Below are positions 35,998 to 43,414 of a stretch of 43,414 nucleotides of DNA, in pieces. The stretch is from NCBI GenBank assembly GCA_026125665.1, contig JAHCKS010000037.1, forward strand, positions 1 through 43,414. The letters run 5' to 3'. The notes beneath the pieces are model-generated. The model saw only the letters and a list, made by a program, of their open reading frames with translations, searched no databases and was not told the DNA's origin. Each line of letters starts with the position of its first letter. The first letter of the stretch is position 1. The DNA is from Rubrivivax sp. Lineage in GTDB: Bacteria > Pseudomonadota > Gammaproteobacteria > Burkholderiales > Burkholderiaceae_C. A program made the position numbers and the translations under genes.

Positions 35998-36759
35998 ATG
36001 CCCGCCGCCCGTCGACCCGCTGCGCCGCCGGACCCGCTGTCCGATGGCACGGGGCCGTCCGCATTGTCCCTGCGGCTGGCCCTCGCCAACGGCGACACGG
36101 TGTCGGCGCTGCGCGTCGACCCCGCGGGCAGCGCCGCACCCGTGGCCGCTTTCGTGCTGGCACATGGGGCCGGCGCCGGCATGCGGCATGCCTTCATGGA
36201 GCGCCTGGCGCGTGGCCTTGCCGGGCGCGGCATCGCCACGCTGCGCTACCAGTTCGCCTACATGGAGCACGGCAGCAAGCGGCCCGATCCGCCGGCGCTG
36301 GCGCATGCGGCGGTGCGCGCCGCCGTGGCCGAAGCGGCTCGCCAGTGGCCCGACCTGCCGCTCGTGGCCGGAGGCAAGTCGTTCGGCGGCCGCATGACCT
36401 CGCAGGCGCAAGCCGCGGCGGCTTTGCCCGGCGTGCAAGGCCTCGTCTTCGTCGGCTTTCCGCTGCACCCGGCCGGCAAGCCCGGCCTCGAGCGCGCGGG
36501 GCATCTGGACGGCGTCTGCTGCCCCATGCTCTTCCTGCAGGGCACGCGCGACGAGCTGGCCGAGCTCGCGCTCGTGCGGGACGTGGCCGCGCGGCTCGGC
36601 CCCCGCGCCACGCTCGAGGTCTTCGACGACGCCGACCACTCGTTCCACGTGCGTGCGGCCAGCGGCACCCACGACGCGCAGGTGATGAGCCGGCTGCTCG
36701 ACGCGACGGCCGCGTGGGTCCGCACGCTCATCGAGGCTCCGCCGTGGCCCGCCCGCTGA
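35998..36759 (+). CDS. Alpha/beta-hydrolase of the KANL3/Tex30 type
   Basis: This is a 253-residue cytosolic alpha/beta-fold protein. FVLAHGAGAGMRHAFMERLA supplies the oxyanion region, GGKSFGGRM places the nucleophile Ser128 at a nucleophile elbow, and LQGTRDELAE with DDADHSFH gives the acid and His. This matches the KANL3/Tex30 dienelactone-hydrolase-like group found beside ligD in several proteobacteria. The substrate is unknown. It ends 16 bp inside ligD, so the two are translationally coupled. Confidence 0.85.
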   Translation: MPAARRPAAPPDPLSDGTGPSALSLRLALANGDTVSALRVDPAGSAAPVAAFVLAHGAGAGMRHAFMERLARGLAGRGIATLRYQFAYMEHGSKRPDPPALAHAAVRAAVAEAARQWPDLPLVAGGKSFGGRMTSQAQAAAALPGVQGLVFVGFPLHPAGKPGLERAGHLDGVCCPMLFLQGTRDELAELALVRDVAARLGPRATLEVFDDADHSFHVRAASGTHDAQVMSRLLDATAAWVRTLIEAPPWPAR

Positions 36760-39410
36760 AGAAGTACACCGAGAAGCGCGACTTCTCGCGCACGCCCGAG
36801 CCATCCGGCGATGGTGAGGGCGACGGCGACGGTGACGTCGTCGCCTCCGAAGGCCCGCTCTCGTTCGTCGTGCAGAAGCACTGGGCCTCGCGCCTGCACT
36901 ACGACTTCCGGCTCGAGCTGGACGGCGTGCTCGTCAGCTGGGCGCTGCCGCGTGGCCCGAGCTACGACCCGGCCGACAAGCGCATGGCCGTGCACGTCGA
37001 GGACCACCCGGTCGCCTACGGCAGCTTCGAGGGCACGATCCCGAAGGGCCAGTACGGCGCCGGCCGCGTCATCGTCTGGGACCGCGGCCAATGGGAGCCG
37101 GTGGGCGACCCGCGCGCCGGCATGGCCGACGGCAAGCTCGTCTTCAGGCTGCACGGCGAGAAGCTCGCGGGCTTGTGGGAGCTCGTGCGCATCGCCAAGC
37201 CCGGCGAGCGCCAGGAAGCGTGGATGCTGTTCAAGAAGCGCGACGCATGGGCGCGGCCGAGTGCCGAGTACGACGTCGTGAGCGCACTGCCCGACAGCGT
37301 CGTCGACAAGCCGCTCGGGCTCGTCGAGGAGCGGCAGCCGCGTGGCGGCGCGGCGGCGAACGCCGCGGCCCACGGCCGGGGCAACGAAGCGACGCCGCCG
37401 CGTTCGGCCGCCGATCTGCCCGGTGCCGTGCGCGTGGACACGCTGCCCGACAAGCTCGCACCGCAGCTGGCCACCGCGAGCGAAGGCCCGCCCGGCCGCG
37501 GCGAGTGGCTGCACGAGCTGAAGTACGACGGCTACCGCCTGCTCGCCCGCTTCGACGCCGCCGGCGGCGTGACGCTGCACACGCGCAACGGGCACGACTG
37601 GACGAGCCGGCTGCAGCCGCTGGCCGCGGCGGTGGCGAAGCTCGGCTGGCGCTCGAGCTGGCTCGACGGCGAGATCGTCGTGCTCGGCGAGCGGGGCACG
37701 CCCGACTTCAGCGCGCTGCAGAACGCCATCGACTCGGCACGCCCGGGATCGAAAGGCGGCGAGGCCATCCGCTACTTCGTCTTCGACCTGCCGTTCCACG
37801 ACGGCCACGACCTGCGCCGCACGCCGCTGTTCGCGCGGCGCGCACTGCTGCGCCAGCTGCTCGACCGCGCCGGCAGTGGCGGCGACGGTGGCGACGGCGG
37901 GCCTTCGGACGACGACGACCCCGCCGTGCGCTTCAGCGCCGACTTCGCCGCCGACGCGGCGAGCCTGCTCGAATCGGCGCGCACGCTCGGGCTCGAAGGC
38001 ATCATCGCCAAGCGCGCCGACGCGCCCTACGTCTCGCAGCGCAGCGACAGCTGGCTGAAGCTGAAGATCGCCGGCCGACAGGAGCTGGTCATCGGCGGGT
38101 TCACGGTGCGCCAGGGCGCCGCCGCCGAGATCGGCAGCCTGATCCTCGGCGTGTACGACGCGCAGGGCCGGCTCGAACACGCCGGCAGCGTCGGCACCGG
38201 CTGGGATGCGGCCGCCGCCACGGACCTGTTCAGGCGCCTTGCGGCGCTCGAGGTGCGCGAGCCGCCGTTCGCCGCCGGCAGCCCCGACCCCGGGCGCTGG
38301 TCGCGCCGCGCCTCGGGCAGCGAGCGCTGGGTGAAGCCCGAGCTCGTGGCCGAGGTGCGCTTCGCCGGCTGGACGCCGGCCGGGCACGTGCGGCATGCCG
38401 TGTTCATCGCGCTGCGCGCGGACAAGCCGGCCCGCTCGGTGACGCGCGAGCGGGTGCTCAATGCCGACGCGCTGGCGCGCGCGGCGAACGGCACGTCGCG
38501 CGACGGCCGCCCGAGCATCAAGGTGACGCACGGCGAGCGGGTCATCGACGCCAGCACCGGCCTGACCAAGCTCGACCTCGTGCGCTACTACGACAGCGTG
38601 GCCGAGCGCATCCTGCCGCACCTGGCGGGCCGGCCGGTCTCGCTGGTGCGCGGGCCCGAGGGCGTCGGTGGCCCGCTCTTCTTCCAGAAGCACGACGAGG
38701 CCGGCAGCATCCCCGGCCTGCGTGTGTTGCCGACCTCGCTGTGGCCCGGGCACGCGCCGCTGCTCGAGGTGCACGATGCGGCCGGCCTGCTCGCCGCGGC
38801 GCAGATGAACGTCATCGAGCTCCACACCTGGAACTCGACGGTGAAGAAGATCGACCAGCCCGACCGCATCGTCTTCGACCTCGACCCCGGTGAAGGGGTG
38901 CCTTGGGAACGCGTGGTCGAGGGCGCGCTGCTCGTGCGCACGCTGCTGGACGAGCTGGGCCTGCAAGGCTGGCTGAAGACGAGCGGCGGCAAGGGCCTGC
39001 ACGTGGTCGTGCCGATGACCGCGAGGCTCGACTACGACACGGTGAAGGACTTCTCGCAGGCGGCGGTGGAGCACCTGGCGCGAACGATCCCCTCGCGCTT
39101 CGTCGCCAAGAGCGGGGCATCGAACCGCGTCGGCAGGATCTTCGTCGACTACCTGCGCAACGGCCACGGCGCCACCACGGCGGCAGCGTTCTCGGCGCGC
39201 GCGCGGCCCGGGCTCGGGGTGTCGATGCCGGTGGCCTGGGACGACCTGGCGACGCTGAAGAGTGGCGCGCAGTGGAACATCGCCACGGCGCGCGAGCACC
39301 TGTCGTTCCAGGGTGCGGCCGACCCGTGGGCCGGCTTTTTCGGCGCCAAACAGACACTCACGGCAGCAATGCGGACGCTCGGCTTGGCAAAGGCGCGAAG
39401 TCCGCGCTAA
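36744..39410 (+). CDS. ligD: ATP-dependent DNA ligase D (NHEJ)
   Basis: This 888-residue multifunctional repair enzyme joins double-strand breaks with Ku. The order is phosphoesterase, ligase, polymerase. The phosphoesterase domain shows FVVQKHWASRLHYDFRLELD (from residue 41). The ligase adenylates Lys260 in LKYDGYRLL and continues through EGIIAKRADAPY and SDSWLKLKI. The primase-polymerase domain carries catalytic Asp712 and Asp714 in FDLDPGEG and SGGKGLHVVVP. Linkers are Gly/Asp-rich (for example GDGEGDGDGD near residue 22 and a GDGG run in the ligase). GTG at 36744 fits the family start KKYTEKRDFSRTPEP. ku follows after 48 bp. Confidence 0.96.
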   Translation: MARPLKKYTEKRDFSRTPEPSGDGEGDGDGDVVASEGPLSFVVQKHWASRLHYDFRLELDGVLVSWALPRGPSYDPADKRMAVHVEDHPVAYGSFEGTIPKGQYGAGRVIVWDRGQWEPVGDPRAGMADGKLVFRLHGEKLAGLWELVRIAKPGERQEAWMLFKKRDAWARPSAEYDVVSALPDSVVDKPLGLVEERQPRGGAAANAAAHGRGNEATPPRSAADLPGAVRVDTLPDKLAPQLATASEGPPGRGEWLHELKYDGYRLLARFDAAGGVTLHTRNGHDWTSRLQPLAAAVAKLGWRSSWLDGEIVVLGERGTPDFSALQNAIDSARPGSKGGEAIRYFVFDLPFHDGHDLRRTPLFARRALLRQLLDRAGSGGDGGDGGPSDDDDPAVRFSADFAADAASLLESARTLGLEGIIAKRADAPYVSQRSDSWLKLKIAGRQELVIGGFTVRQGAAAEIGSLILGVYDAQGRLEHAGSVGTGWDAAAATDLFRRLAALEVREPPFAAGSPDPGRWSRRASGSERWVKPELVAEVRFAGWTPAGHVRHAVFIALRADKPARSVTRERVLNADALARAANGTSRDGRPSIKVTHGERVIDASTGLTKLDLVRYYDSVAERILPHLAGRPVSLVRGPEGVGGPLFFQKHDEAGSIPGLRVLPTSLWPGHAPLLEVHDAAGLLAAAQMNVIELHTWNSTVKKIDQPDRIVFDLDPGEGVPWERVVEGALLVRTLLDELGLQGWLKTSGGKGLHVVVPMTARLDYDTVKDFSQAAVEHLARTIPSRFVAKSGASNRVGRIFVDYLRNGHGATTAAAFSARARPGLGVSMPVAWDDLATLKSGAQWNIATAREHLSFQGAADPWAGFFGAKQTLTAAMRTLGLAKARSPR

Positions 39411-39458
39411 CCTCGCCACCCCGCGCACTGCCGGCGCGCCCCCTCGCAGGTGCCACCC

Positions 39459-40412
39459 ATGGCGGCCCGTTCGATTGCCTCGCTGTCGCTCAGCTTCGGC
39501 CTCGTCTCCATTCCGGTGAAGGTGTTCTCCGCCACCGAAAGCGGCGCGGCGGTGCACTTCAACATGCTGCACAGCTGCGGCTCGCGGCTGAAGCAGCAGT
39601 ACGTGTGCGTCAAGGAAGGTGTGGTCGTCGAGCGCGCCGACATGATCAAGGGCTACGAGTTCGACAAGGACCGCTACGTCACCTTCACGCCGGCGGAGCT
39701 GAAGGCGCTGGAGGAGTCGGCGCGGCACACCATCGACATCGTGTCGTTCATTCCGCTGAAGGCGGTCGACCCCATCTACTACGACAAGGCCTACTACCTG
39801 GCACCCGACAAGCGCGGCGCCAAGCCCTACGAGCTGCTGCGCCAGGCAATGCTCGAAAGCGGCCGCTGCGCGCTGGCGCGCTGGGCCTGGAAGGGCAAGC
39901 AGTACGTGGTGCAGGTGCGGCCCGCCGAAACCGAGGACGGCGGGCTCATCCTGCAGCAGCTGCTCTACGCCGACGAGGTGCGCTCGATGCGCGAGCTCGA
40001 GATCGAGCGCGCCGAGATCAGCAAGCCCGAGCTGCAACTGGCGCTGCAGCTGATCGACCAGATCGCCGCCGACGACTACGACCCGGCCGAGTTCAAGGAC
40101 GAGGAGAAGGTGCGCGTGCTCGCCGCCATCGACGAGAAGATCGCCGGCAAGGCGATCGTCGTCGCCGAGCCCGTGGGGGCCGAGTCGGCCGACGCGAAGA
40201 TCATCGACCTCACCGAGGCGCTGCGCGCCAGCCTCACCGGACGCAAGGCGGCGGCGAAGACGGCCGCACCCGCTGCGCCTGCCGCCGCCGCGGCGCCGGC
40301 GGCGGCCGAGCTGCCGCGCAAGTCCGCCAAGCGCGCCAGGGCCGCGGAGCCGGCCGAGGCCGCCGACGAAGCCGCCACCGCGCCGGCGCCGCGCGCCCGG
40401 GCGCGCAAGTAG
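39459..40412 (+). CDS. ku: Non-homologous end-joining protein Ku
   Basis: This is a 317-residue bacterial Ku homodimer subunit that threads onto DNA ends and recruits LigD. IASLSLSFGLVSIPVKVFSA and KGYEFDKDRYVTFTPAELKALE are standard, followed by the dimer arm and ELEIERAEISKPELQLALQL. The last 60 residues are a Lys/Ala/Pro tail (RKAAAKTAAPAAPAA-type) like the basic extensions that bind DNA in other Ku proteins. ATG at 39459 was preferred to GTG three codons earlier. It is part of the ligD operon. Confidence 0.96.
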   Translation: MAARSIASLSLSFGLVSIPVKVFSATESGAAVHFNMLHSCGSRLKQQYVCVKEGVVVERADMIKGYEFDKDRYVTFTPAELKALEESARHTIDIVSFIPLKAVDPIYYDKAYYLAPDKRGAKPYELLRQAMLESGRCALARWAWKGKQYVVQVRPAETEDGGLILQQLLYADEVRSMRELEIERAEISKPELQLALQLIDQIAADDYDPAEFKDEEKVRVLAAIDEKIAGKAIVVAEPVGAESADAKIIDLTEALRASLTGRKAAAKTAAPAAPAAAAAPAAAELPRKSAKRARAAEPAEAADEAATAPAPRARARK

Positions 40413-41496: not shown

Positions 41497-41868
41497 CTAG
41501 GCCGCGTCCGCGAGCACGCGCTTCACGGCCTCGCGCAGCGCCCGGCGGCCCGCTGCGTTCGTGCGCCGCCAAGCCGTGGCTGCGAGCTCGAGGAACGCGG
41601 TCTCGGCGGCGCTGGGCGGTGCGTCCTTGCGCGGCTCGTCGAGCCAGCCTGCCGGCTTGCGCGCAAGCGCCTCGATCTGCCGCGCCAGCTTGTCGCCGAT
41701 CGGCCGCGCGGCCTTGATCTGGCTCCACATGCTGGGCGAGATCTGCAGCGTGGCGGCAAACGCCTGCTCCAGCCCCTTCGTCGTGGCACCGGCGGCAAGC
41801 GCGCGCTCGGCATGCTCGTGGAACAGCACGAGCACGTTCTCCCGGCGCGTGACGGTGATCTTGGACAC
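41497..41868 (-). CDS. Small HTH DNA-binding protein
   Basis: This is a 123-residue protein with a central helix-turn-helix, about residues 28-65 (TTKGLEQAFAATLQISPSMW, then SQIKAARPIGDKLARQIEAL). It resembles Cro/XRE-like phage or plasmid regulators. The rest is helical with ETAFLELAATAWRRTN near the end. GTG at 41868 is the start; no strong SD is visible. A possible minus-strand promoter (TTTACC, 18 bp, GACAAT) overlaps the palindrome shared with the divergent plus-strand promoter, which suggests autoregulation. Confidence 0.7.
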   Translation of the reverse strand: MSKITVTRRENVLVLFHEHAERALAAGATTKGLEQAFAATLQISPSMWSQIKAARPIGDKLARQIEALARKPAGWLDEPRKDAPPSAAETAFLELAATAWRRTNAAGRRALREAVKRVLADAA

Positions 41869-41930
41869 GGGCTGGGCGCGGGCCTCTTGGGTGAACCTTC
41901 GTCGTTTCGCCGCGCCATTGTCGCCGGGGG

Positions 41931-41959
41931 TTGACGAAGAGGTAAAGACTCTTTACAGT
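41931..41959 (+). promoter_or_regulatory. Strong sigma70-type promoter with embedded operator
   Basis: TTGACG and TACAGT are spaced by 17 bp, the best housekeeping promoter in the window. Within it, GTAAAG-ACT-CTTTAC (41942-41956) is a perfect dyad touching the -10, an ideal repressor site. The divergent HTH gene is the obvious candidate regulator. Confidence 0.7.
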
Positions 41960-41965
41960 GCGCCG

Positions 41966-42286
41966 CTTCGCATCGCCCGCCTCGTTGGGCGTGCGTCCGG
42001 TCCACCCGACCCACCGAGCCACCGAAAGGCCTGCGTACCGTGACCCCGCGCAACGTCCCCATCACGACACGACCCCTGCCGGGTCGGCAGGGTGGCGCGC
42101 GCGCCGTGGCTCGTGCGTGCGCCTTCACGCCGCGCCCGAGCTTGCCGGGCCGTCGCCTTGCCAGCGACGGCAGGCCGGCGCGGGTCGAGGTCCAGGCACA
42201 TCCGGGAGAGGGAAGCGCTCAGGCGTAGCCCTTCACGCTCTGTTCGCAGAGGCCCGGTTCCGCAAGGACCCGGGCCTTTGTCCTTT
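41966..42286 (+). ncRNA. Candidate structured RNA of about 320 nt
   Basis: It is defined by the promoter at 41931 and the terminator at 42250-42286. Internal perfect stems are CCCTGCC-GGGTC-GGCAGGG (42074-42092) and GCCGTCGC-CTTGCCA-GCGACGGC (42149-42171). A 62-codon frame from GTG 42040 to TAG 42228 exists but its Arg/Pro/Ala content is what high-GC noise gives and its ribosome site is poor. The unit could be a small RNA or a leader-peptide mRNA. No known RNA family was recognised. Confidence 0.4.
42250..42286 (+). terminator. Intrinsic terminator with GCAA tetraloop
   Basis: AGGCCCGGTTCC and GGACCCGGGCCT pair over 12 positions with one mismatch around GCAA, a GNRA-type tetraloop, and are followed by TTGTCCTTT. 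This is the best intrinsic terminator in the window and closes the transcription unit started at 41966. Confidence 0.8.
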
Positions 42287-42353
42287 CCGATGTTCCAGAC
42301 AAGCCATGCCCGCGCTTCGGTGCGGCATGCCACCGACGGCAACGCAGCGGTGA

Positions 42354-42365
42354 GCTCTTTGACAA
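42354..42365 (+). promoter_or_regulatory. boxA-like antitermination sequence
   Basis: GCTCTTTGACAA differs by one base from the rrn-type boxA core GCTCTTTAACAA, which recruits NusB/NusE to stable-RNA transcripts. It lies 68 bases upstream of the first tRNA-like element. The match may be chance but the position is appropriate for a stable-RNA leader. A hairpin CATGCCCGC/GCGGCATG lies before it (about 42304-42330). Confidence 0.4.
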
Positions 42366-42370
42366 CACGC

Positions 42371-42415
42371 GGCAAGGTGACCGGTGCCCGTCAAAGGGCC
42401 GCCGACGGCCTTGCC
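42371..42415 (+). other. Nested hairpin before the tRNA-like elements
   Basis: GGCAAGG (42371-42377) pairs with CCTTGCC (42409-42415), enclosing GGTGCCC paired with GGGC-CGCC. The 45-base structure ends seven bases before the first tRNA-like element and could be a leader stem or processing site. Confidence 0.5.
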
Positions 42416-42421
42416 ATTCGT

Positions 42422-42500
42422 GCGGATGCAGCTCGGCAGGCAGAGCGCGGCCACGTCGTGGCTGCTCAGGCGGGCAGAGCGAGACTCGTCGTCCGCACCA
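42422..42500 (+). tRNA. tRNA-like element, anticodon position GTC (Asp-like), degenerate
   Basis: Acceptor GCGGATG pairs with CGTCCGC (one G-T), followed by A73 and encoded CCA. The D stem GCTC/GAGC closes an 8-base loop containing GG. The anticodon stem CGGCC/GGCTG (one G-T) holds loop ACGTCGT, giving anticodon GTC by position but with C33 instead of U33 and G37. The T arm is poor: the loop ends CGAGA where TTCGAGA is expected and only two or three stem pairs form. It is probably a decayed or specialised tRNA rather than a normal tRNA-Asp, which has different acceptor sequence in this order. Confidence 0.55.
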
Positions 42501-42750
42501 CTTCGGGTGTGTCCATGCACTCCGCAGCCACGTCGGCCTGGGTGGGTGTGGCGGCGGGATGTGCGCGGCCCTTGGCCAGGCCCCGTGCAGCGGGACACCA
42601 CGTCCGACGGGACGCTCGCGTGTGGGCACAGCCGAAGTGGAAGACACGACAACAGATCAAGGAGCCCTCGCCGAGCGCAACGCCGCGAGGGTGGAAATCG
42701 GCCGCGACGATTGGGCGGCGCCGGAACCCGTGACCGGATGGCACCCACCT
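42501..42750. other. Region between tRNA-like elements, no gene recognised
   Basis: No convincing protein frame or third tRNA was found. Visible stems are CGTCC/GGACG (42601-42614), CCCTCGC/GCGAGGG (42665-42691) and the distant pair GCCGA/TCGGC (42631-42702), which would enclose a tRNA-sized 72-base fold without CCA. GTGTCC (42509) can pair with GGACAC near 42598, followed by CACG rather than CCA. Confidence 0.4.
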
Positions 42751-42826
42751 CTCGGTGTGGCGCAGCAGGAAGCGCGCGTGTTCCGGAAACACGAGGCCGC
42801 AGGTTCGAGCCCTGCCACCGAGACCA
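42751..42826 (+). tRNA. tRNA-Pro-like element, anticodon position CGG
   Basis: It folds perfectly as a 76-base tRNA: acceptor CTCGGTG/CACCGAG, U8, D stem GCGC/GCGC with A14, G18G19, A21, anticodon stem CGTGT/ACACG, five-base variable loop, T stem GCAGG/CCTGC with loop TTCGAGC, A73 and CCA. C1-G72, A73, G35 and G36 are the known proline identity elements. Oddities are C33 in place of the near-invariant U33 and A37 where tRNA-Pro normally has G37. The protease gene starts 41 bases later. Whether it is charged and decodes is open. Confidence 0.75.
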
Positions 42827-42866
42827 TTCCCGCCGCGCCCCCCTCTTCATCCACCCCGAGAAGATC

Positions 42867-43414
42867 ATGAAGAACGAACAGCTGCCGGGCGCGGCCCTCC
42901 AGGTCGCAGGCCCGCCCGGCATCAAGGTCAGGCAGCCGCCCGTGCTCTTCAGCAAGACGCAGGCGCTGATCCGGCAGATCTCGGCCCGCCTGGGCGGCCC
43001 GCTCGTGGCCTACTGGAACGGCCCGCGCGGCTCGGTGTGCCACTCCGACGTCGTGGCGCTGTACCACCTGCTCGAGCGGCTCGGCCGGCACGAGACGATC
43101 CACCTGTTCCTCAAGTCCGACGGCGGCAGCGGCCAGGTGTCGCTGCGCCTGGTGAGCCTGCTTCGCCAGCACTGCGCTCGTCTGGTGGCGCTGGTGCCGC
43201 TGCAGTGCGCTTCGGCGGCGACGATGATCGCGCTCGGCGCCGACAGTATCCGCATGGGCCCGACGGCCTACCTGACGGCGGTGGACACGTCGCTGCACCA
43301 CGCGCTGTCTCCGGTGGACCGCGACAACGACCTCGTCGGCGTCAGCCTCGACGAGCTGCAGCGCGTCATCCGCCTGTGGCGCGAGCAGCAGGGCCGGGGC
43401 GACGCGGCGGCGCA
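42867..43414 (+). CDS. SDH-family Clp-fold serine protease (partial)
   Basis: The first 182 residues are present; the gene continues beyond the window. The protein resembles the SDH_protease/SppA-ClpP fold group. IHLFLKSDGGSGQVSLRLV forms the oxyanion-hole strand, and VALVPLQCASAATMIALGAD contains the candidate nucleophile Ser (CASAATM), followed by SIRMGPTAYLTAVD as in Clp-like folds. No signal peptide or membrane helix is seen in the available part. GAGAAG lies just upstream of the ATG. It is directly downstream of the tRNA-like elements on the same strand, so one transcript may contain both. Confidence 0.8.
   Translation, partial: MKNEQLPGAALQVAGPPGIKVRQPPVLFSKTQALIRQISARLGGPLVAYWNGPRGSVCHSDVVALYHLLERLGRHETIHLFLKSDGGSGQVSLRLVSLLRQHCARLVALVPLQCASAATMIALGADSIRMGPTAYLTAVDTSLHHALSPVDRDNDLVGVSLDELQRVIRLWREQQGRGDAAA

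Follow-up and report, generated by a model that had tools for sequence, protein, structure and literature searches.

A tRNA-Pro with C33 and A37 in Rubrivivax sp. is probably part of a reduced RtcB-linked tRNA array locus

How does a tRNA gene that folds without a mismatch and encodes its own CCA end come to carry C at position 33 and A at position 37? We analysed such a gene in a stretch of 43,414 nucleotides from Rubrivivax sp., which is the entire contig C199 (JAHCKS010000037.1; hereafter the window) of a 6.28 Mb draft assembly with 268 contigs and 88.6% completeness. ARAGORN called a tRNA-Pro(cgg) at exactly 42751-42826 as the sole tRNA of the window, and Rfam matched the same bases to its tRNA family with 58.9 bits (E 2.5e-10). 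A pair-by-pair check revealed stems of 7, 4, 5 and 5 pairs, with 21 of 21 pairs being Watson-Crick, an anticodon loop reading UCCGGAA, and an encoded A73 and CCA. The preliminary description of this DNA had reported the intact stems, the encoded CCA, C33 (42783) and A37 (42787) as well as C1-G72, A73, G35 and G36, and all of these were confirmed. As both tools and the mismatch-free stems agree, C33 and A37 are real in the assembly, and 42751-42826 is a genuine tRNA-Pro, which fits the tRNA-Pro cloverleaf (CGG, C1-G72, A73, CCA) but not the U33/G37 rule. The genome yielded 37 tRNA matches, and among the 29 loci that were fetched three are ordinary tRNA-Pro genes (loops TTCGGGA, TTTGGGA and ATGGGGT). 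Comparison with these genes, as the preliminary description had suggested, showed U33 and G37 in all three, unlike the window copy.

A search for the window tRNA-Pro in 61 genomes, its own included, gave matches in 17, many of them weak. Six genomes of the same genus contain full-length copies with 83-91% identity, located among 5-22 tRNAs, and two more (G015 and G032) contain broken copies beside 2 and 11 tRNAs, respectively. Alignment of the same-genus array copies showed U33 in eight of eight and A37 in one of eight (G009). A normal U33 in close relatives is what the preliminary description had itself set against its proposal of a special function. Across 36 unique array tRNA-Pro sequences U33 occurs in 35 and A37 in four, and the 26 with a length of 76 bases all combine U33 with G37. 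Against the closest array tRNA-Pro of equal length (G151), the window copy shows five differences (positions 20, 33, 37, 59 and 60), all of them located in loops. On these alignments C33 and A37 of the window tRNA-Pro are derived states, C33 because the orthologous array tRNA-Pro have U33.

The arrays of the relatives hold 4-27 tRNAs. Window positions 41521-42642 can be aligned to the G012 array region along 1.2 kb at 70%, and other arrays share shorter blocks with the window. Compared with the array L033, the window lacks Thr and Glu between two strongly conserved segments amid the array remains (termed RNA A and RNA B), Asp to Ile between RNA B and Pro, and any tRNA after Pro. The features considered here are the following.

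41497-41868, minus strand: x0, a small divergent gene of 123 aa, candidate repressor, in the same place in relatives
41931-41959, plus strand: sigma-70-type promoter with the palindromic operator GTAAAGACTCTTTACA at 41942-41957 across its -10 box
42423-42502, plus strand: broken tRNA-Gly of the array with extra anticodon-arm bases and a disrupted T arm, from alignment with 14 array tRNA-Gly
42494-42645, plus strand: RNA A, with a branched interior and a long closing stem (model R2, 139.4 bits)
42664-42738, plus strand: RNA B, with three hairpins (model R1, 87.4 bits)
42751-42826, plus strand: tRNA-Pro(CGG) with encoded CCA, C33 and A37 (ARAGORN, Rfam and stem check)
42867-43414, plus strand: SDH/ClpP-like gene, truncated by the contig end (PF01972, 25.4 bits, below the cut-off of 31.3)

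The tRNA-Gly remnant was called neither by ARAGORN nor by Rfam. Further hidden tRNAs in 41500-43414 were rejected, as Rfam at E values up to 5 gave the tRNA-Pro alone as tRNA. With one intact and one broken tRNA the window itself falls outside our definition of an array (many tRNAs in a short stretch), and the tRNA-Pro appears to be the last intact tRNA of a larger array rather than an isolated element. The suggestion of the preliminary description that the gene is under selection or recent is weakly supported: the five differences from G151 spare all stems, but the adjoining tRNA-Gly is broken. The idea that the tRNA borders an integrated phage or plasmid was also rejected. Eight of the nine window proteins tested gave chromosomal-type Pfam matches (among them methylmalonyl-CoA mutase, DctM, LigD and Ku), x0 gave none, and no integrase was found by Pfam among the nine. 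LigD (36345-39410) and Ku (39450-40412), a double-strand-break repair pair, directly adjoin the RNA-repair remnant.

Searches with Rfam gave no family match over RNA A or RNA B. Alignments fitted to the models, which lean towards the modelled structure, showed 28 of 46 pairs changed on both sides for RNA A (24 rows, one being the reverse strand of another) and 12 of 19 for RNA B (21 rows), and none of 500 shuffles reached any of the five observed measures. Support from covariation is weaker on alignments made without a model. The first alignment of this kind for RNA A contained five pairs changed on both sides (reached by 2 of 500 shuffles), and further pair types were no better than in shuffles (235 of 500); for RNA B it was five such pairs (0 of 500) and, for further types, 28 of 500. 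Folded as a single sequence, RNA A of the window is more stable than its shuffles (z -3.04), and RNA B is not (z 0.46). Phage T4 has two structured stable RNAs of unknown role, C and D, within its tRNA cluster, and by description alone RNA A and RNA B resemble these as structured RNAs among tRNA genes. Among 250 genomes of the family RNA A was detected in 35, RNA B in 37 and both in 28, the two surveys having apparently covered the same genomes. A survey of 300 genomes of the order, in which the filters lose weak matches, found RNA A in five, two from this family and three from one other. Several identities were considered and discarded. Bacterial Y RNA (YrlA, RF02553) did not match over either segment, and the YrlA located between Rsr and RtcB in L182 (4780-4910) is distinct from both. 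A protein-coding nature of RNA A and RNA B was rejected on the variable sites of RNA B, which, judged by eye, follow no codon period. The idea that the first stem of RNA A always partners the CCA end of the tRNA was dropped because copies without an array start with CGAC and not with CCAC.

Upstream of RNA A, the intergenic region shared with x0 contains a conserved promoter (TTGAC, spacer, TACAGT) whose -10 box is spanned by the palindrome GTAAAGANTNTTTAC. In the window the operator is a perfect palindrome and the x0 reading frame is open. A scan of 12 genomes for the pattern GTAAAGANTNTTTACA gave 11 occurrences, all of them located immediately upstream of RNA A and 10 of them between x0 and RNA A, and no occurrence of its backwards control; because such loci had served to define the pattern, the information lies solely in its not occurring elsewhere. 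The genomes without it (G001 and G007) also gave no match for RNA A or RNA B, and a second locus of G255 contains no exact operator site. BLAST detected additional sites resembling the promoter-operator elsewhere in two stretches (L059, 4615-4667; L064, 5544-5593). All 38 genomes with a full-length x0 (cut-off 79.7 bits, chosen after viewing the match list) carry RNA A or RNA B somewhere, in G178 on different contigs, and six genomes with RNA A or RNA B lack a full-length x0. Neither Pfam nor NCBIfam gave a match for x0, be it to the ribbon-helix-helix family of TrcR or to any other. Its closest match among solved structures, a phage CI repressor, is not significant (E 0.72), and its structure model is helical and of low confidence (mean pLDDT 64.8). 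The tie of x0 and the operator to loci with RNA A and RNA B makes x0 the likely, still putative, repressor of the locus.

To describe this locus, 20 stretches around RNA A and RNA B were chosen by hand from the matches of both RNAs plus two same-genus arrays (G012 and G017). RNA A is present in 19 of them, RNA B in 17, x0 in 19, RtcB in 15, HNH in 13, tRNAs in 13, slipin in nine, Rsr in five, RtcR in four, RtcA in three and an SDH-like gene in two. Pfam confirmed RtcB, RtcR, Ro60/TROVE, RTC (RtcA), RlaP, HNH and Band 7 in related stretches. The usual order is x0 (divergent), the operator in the promoter, RNA A, RNA B, tRNAs, HNH, slipin and RtcB, sometimes with RtcR, Rsr or RtcA. Seven of the 20 stretches contain no tRNA, and three (L172, L173 and L174) pass directly from RNA B to RtcB. 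RtcB was not found in five of the 20 (L171, L175, L176, L180 and L185, the last of which ends in Rsr). The window retains x0, the operator, the broken tRNA-Gly, RNA A, RNA B, the tRNA-Pro and the SDH-like gene, and lacks HNH, slipin and most tRNAs. RtcB is not within the window; the sole match in the genome is a 3' end that opens contig C90. The end of the window inside the SDH-like gene and the start of C90 are compatible with one locus, the join being putative. In L184, L187 and L073, homologues of the SDH-like gene occupy the interval from HNH to RtcB, either preceding or following slipin, and an Ideonella plasmid copy lies outside any such locus. An open reading frame of the window (42384-43414) that clustering had grouped with RtcB was dropped as a chance link via a translated tRNA.

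With a probability of roughly 0.6, we propose from this comparison of gene order that the tRNA-Pro belongs to a repressor-controlled, RtcB-linked locus for RNA repair and tRNA replacement in Burkholderiales, which has been cut down in this genome. According to this proposal, x0 would silence the locus by occupying the palindrome that spans the -10 box of the divergent promoter, and damage to tRNAs or translation would lift the repression, in analogy to TrcR of Anabaena and RtcR of Salmonella. The transcript would then supply RNA A, RNA B, spare tRNAs and RtcB, by which the tRNA pool could be rebuilt. The gene at 42751-42826 would be the last intact spare tRNA and a redundant reader of CCG, in which C33 and A37 could be tolerated because three ordinary tRNA-Pro genes exist, or might perhaps be favoured as an altered target of an anticodon nuclease. 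The absence of HNH, slipin and most tRNAs from the window could mean that the locus is dying out in this genome. Much more speculative is a general form of the proposal, to which we lend limited credence: an undescribed, self-contained damage-response locus in which a small repressor with a dedicated operator would control two new structured-RNA families (A and B), a set of replaceable spare tRNAs and the RtcB ligase. C33 would have evolved in these spare tRNAs again and again to escape or report on a nuclease that destroys ordinary tRNAs, and RNA A and RNA B would serve the repair as substrates, sensors or cofactors.

Position 33 was compared in 440 unique array tRNAs, defined as ARAGORN calls with at least four of five anticodon-stem pairs and a three-base anticodon. 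They were drawn from 448 unique sequences of 114 partly overlapping loci and perhaps include some stray tRNAs near arrays. Excluded from the count were L038, L040-L046, L049, L056, L058 and L067 as well as the window's own L001, L121 and L147; L056, with its x0 and three tRNAs, would have been eligible. The comparison revealed 403 U33, 35 C33 and two G33, of which the G33 calls may be spurious. The chromosomal controls, 93 unique tRNAs from 29 own-genome loci and 40 hand-chosen stretches, which represent a subset of the tRNAs of five genomes, contain no C33 (0/93; Fisher p 0.0011, descent ignored). C33 array tRNAs span 11 isoacceptors, including 12 of 14 tRNA-Gly(GCC) and 6 of 28 tRNA-His. CCA is encoded in 31 of the 35, with all seven acceptor pairs in 29 of those 31, and all five anticodon-stem pairs are formed in 31 of 35 C33 compared to 341 of 403 U33 tRNAs. 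By these sequence measures the C33 array tRNAs are as well formed as the remainder, and C33 recurs without loss of structure. In nine unique array tRNA-Gly(GCC) sequences (L055, L060, L061, L063, L065, L069, L073 and others) C33 is accompanied by A32 and U38 in the loop ACGCCAT. Viral contigs showed C33 in 8 of 217 tRNAs, and two of them (L103 and L104) encode a tRNA-Pro(CGG) with the loop TCCGGAG, in which C33 again occurs with A37.

Four overlapping readings of C33 and A37 were weighed, and the likelihoods given to them need not add up to one. Decay, to which we assign slightly less than an even chance, assumes that the locus lost its use, that its tRNAs were deleted or broken singly and that C33 and A37 represent the earliest neutral lesions in the one that was left. 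The absence of Thr, Glu, Asp to Ile and all post-Pro tRNAs relative to L033, the broken tRNA-Gly and the loss of HNH and slipin argue for such a course. However, the stems of the tRNA-Pro are all intact and its five differences from the nearest relative are confined to loops, the model scores of RNA A and RNA B remain at 139.4 and 87.4 bits, x0 is open with a perfectly palindromic operator, and C33 tRNAs elsewhere are well formed. The recurrence of C33 in 35 of 440 array tRNAs and 11 isoacceptors, up to 12 of 14 in Gly(GCC) and with structure kept, is also consistent with an advantage: C33 (and A37) might shield spare tRNAs from anticodon nucleases, as has been proposed for phage tRNAs. The combination of C33 and A37 in the tRNA-Pro(CGG) of two viral contigs and the neighbourhood of RtcB and array would agree with this, as would the anticodon-loop changes at nuclease sites that the accessible part of PMC10264068 describes for phage tRNAs, although position 33 is not named there. 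Set against it, U33 is kept in 403 of 440 array tRNAs, no nuclease is known for these hosts, and relaxed selection in a GC-rich genome would likewise yield C33, so that we treat evasion as a tentative reading.

The preliminary description had favoured a tRNA that is charged but decodes poorly and serves as a decoy, sensor or non-ribosomal substrate. A role outside routine decoding suits the RNA-repair setting, but a stand-alone function of this kind has no direct support for a member of a degenerate array whose orthologues have U33. In favour of a tRNA that reports on or buffers the tRNA state, C1-G72, A73, G35 and G36 are present, and RtcR of Salmonella senses tRNA fragments (PMC7790460, in its accessible part); since the orthologues have U33, this genome would be alone in having such a role, and we judge it improbable. 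Errors in sequencing or assembly at 42783 and 42787 are the least probable source of C33 and A37 and hardly to be expected. The assembly is a draft of 268 contigs and 88.6% completeness and the tRNA-Pro lies within 0.7 kb of a contig end, but two separate errors would be required, C33 is also found in further array tRNAs, and 4 of 36 array tRNA-Pro have A37.

Among the closest known systems is that of Anabaena, where, according to the accessible sections of PMC10272220, TrcR acts as the repressor of a 26-tRNA operon as well as of rtcB and of one slipin and one HNH gene through a site overlapping the -10 box, and where the trn operon and the TrcR regulon are induced by translation inhibitors. 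Common to both are the tRNA array together with rtcB, slipin and HNH, and an operator overlapping the -10 box, repression being putative here. In Anabaena, as those sections report, the genes are dispersed and TrcR is a cyanobacterial ribbon-helix-helix protein, whereas in Burkholderiales the genes form one locus with another putative repressor and with RNA A and RNA B in addition. Among open-licence literature joining RtcB with tRNA genes, clusters, arrays or slipin, the Anabaena work was the sole relevant one. Salmonella RtcR senses broken tRNAs and switches on rtcBA, as stated in the available text of PMC7790460. RtcB is shared with this operon and, in some relatives, RtcR, RtcA, Rsr and YrlA RNA; the Burkholderiales locus adds the tRNA array, x0 with its operator, RNA A and RNA B, and tRNA genes, clusters or arrays were not found in that text. 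Judged by gene content, the locus unites functions of the Anabaena and Salmonella type at a single site, with RNA A and RNA B as additions; by analogy, it would replace and repair tRNAs after damage.

Spare tRNAs with altered anticodon loops are also described in the accessible part of PMC10264068, where they are phage-borne and the cases concern known nuclease sites rather than, as here, a link to RtcB. The tRNA array units of mycobacteria, plasmids and phages are densely packed clusters of divergent tRNA genes for most amino acids, often on large plasmids (PMC12803027 and PMC5966550, as far as their accessible parts extend), and an antidefense role has been proposed for them (PMC12803027, same part). 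RtcB and RNA ligase were not found in that part of PMC12803027, whereas here the array is linked to an RNA-repair locus. The arrays of plasmids and phages have no agreed role, and their joining to RtcB, a dedicated operator and two conserved RNAs renders the idea of replacement and repair of damaged tRNAs directly testable, for instance in the cultured bacteria Piscinibacter defluvii and Methylibium petroleiphilum. The locus around the tRNA-Pro is the most useful result of this analysis; for C33 itself drift and evasion are both in play, and its recurrence offers naturally occurring variants with which to ask to what extent U33 is dispensable, and why.

Arrays are also present on megaplasmids, with 27 tRNAs in Methylibium petroleiphilum PM1 (RPME01), 23 in Variovorax sp. 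RA8 and 10 in V. paradoxus SPNA7, and within the bases fetched for plasmid arrays (L107, L109 and L110) no RtcB was found. The plasmid array of Variovorax sp. RA8 contains a gene annotated as RNA ligase family protein (L109, 10240-11301), and in that of Methylibium an HD-domain protein and an AlkB dioxygenase are annotated between tRNAs (L107, 14227-15579). A PcfJ-like gene is located within or beside the array in L177, L184, L188, L050 and L072. Arrays of the same type were also detected on short contigs titled Silanimonas and Planctomycetota (L051 and L062), which possibly reflects binning errors or transfer.
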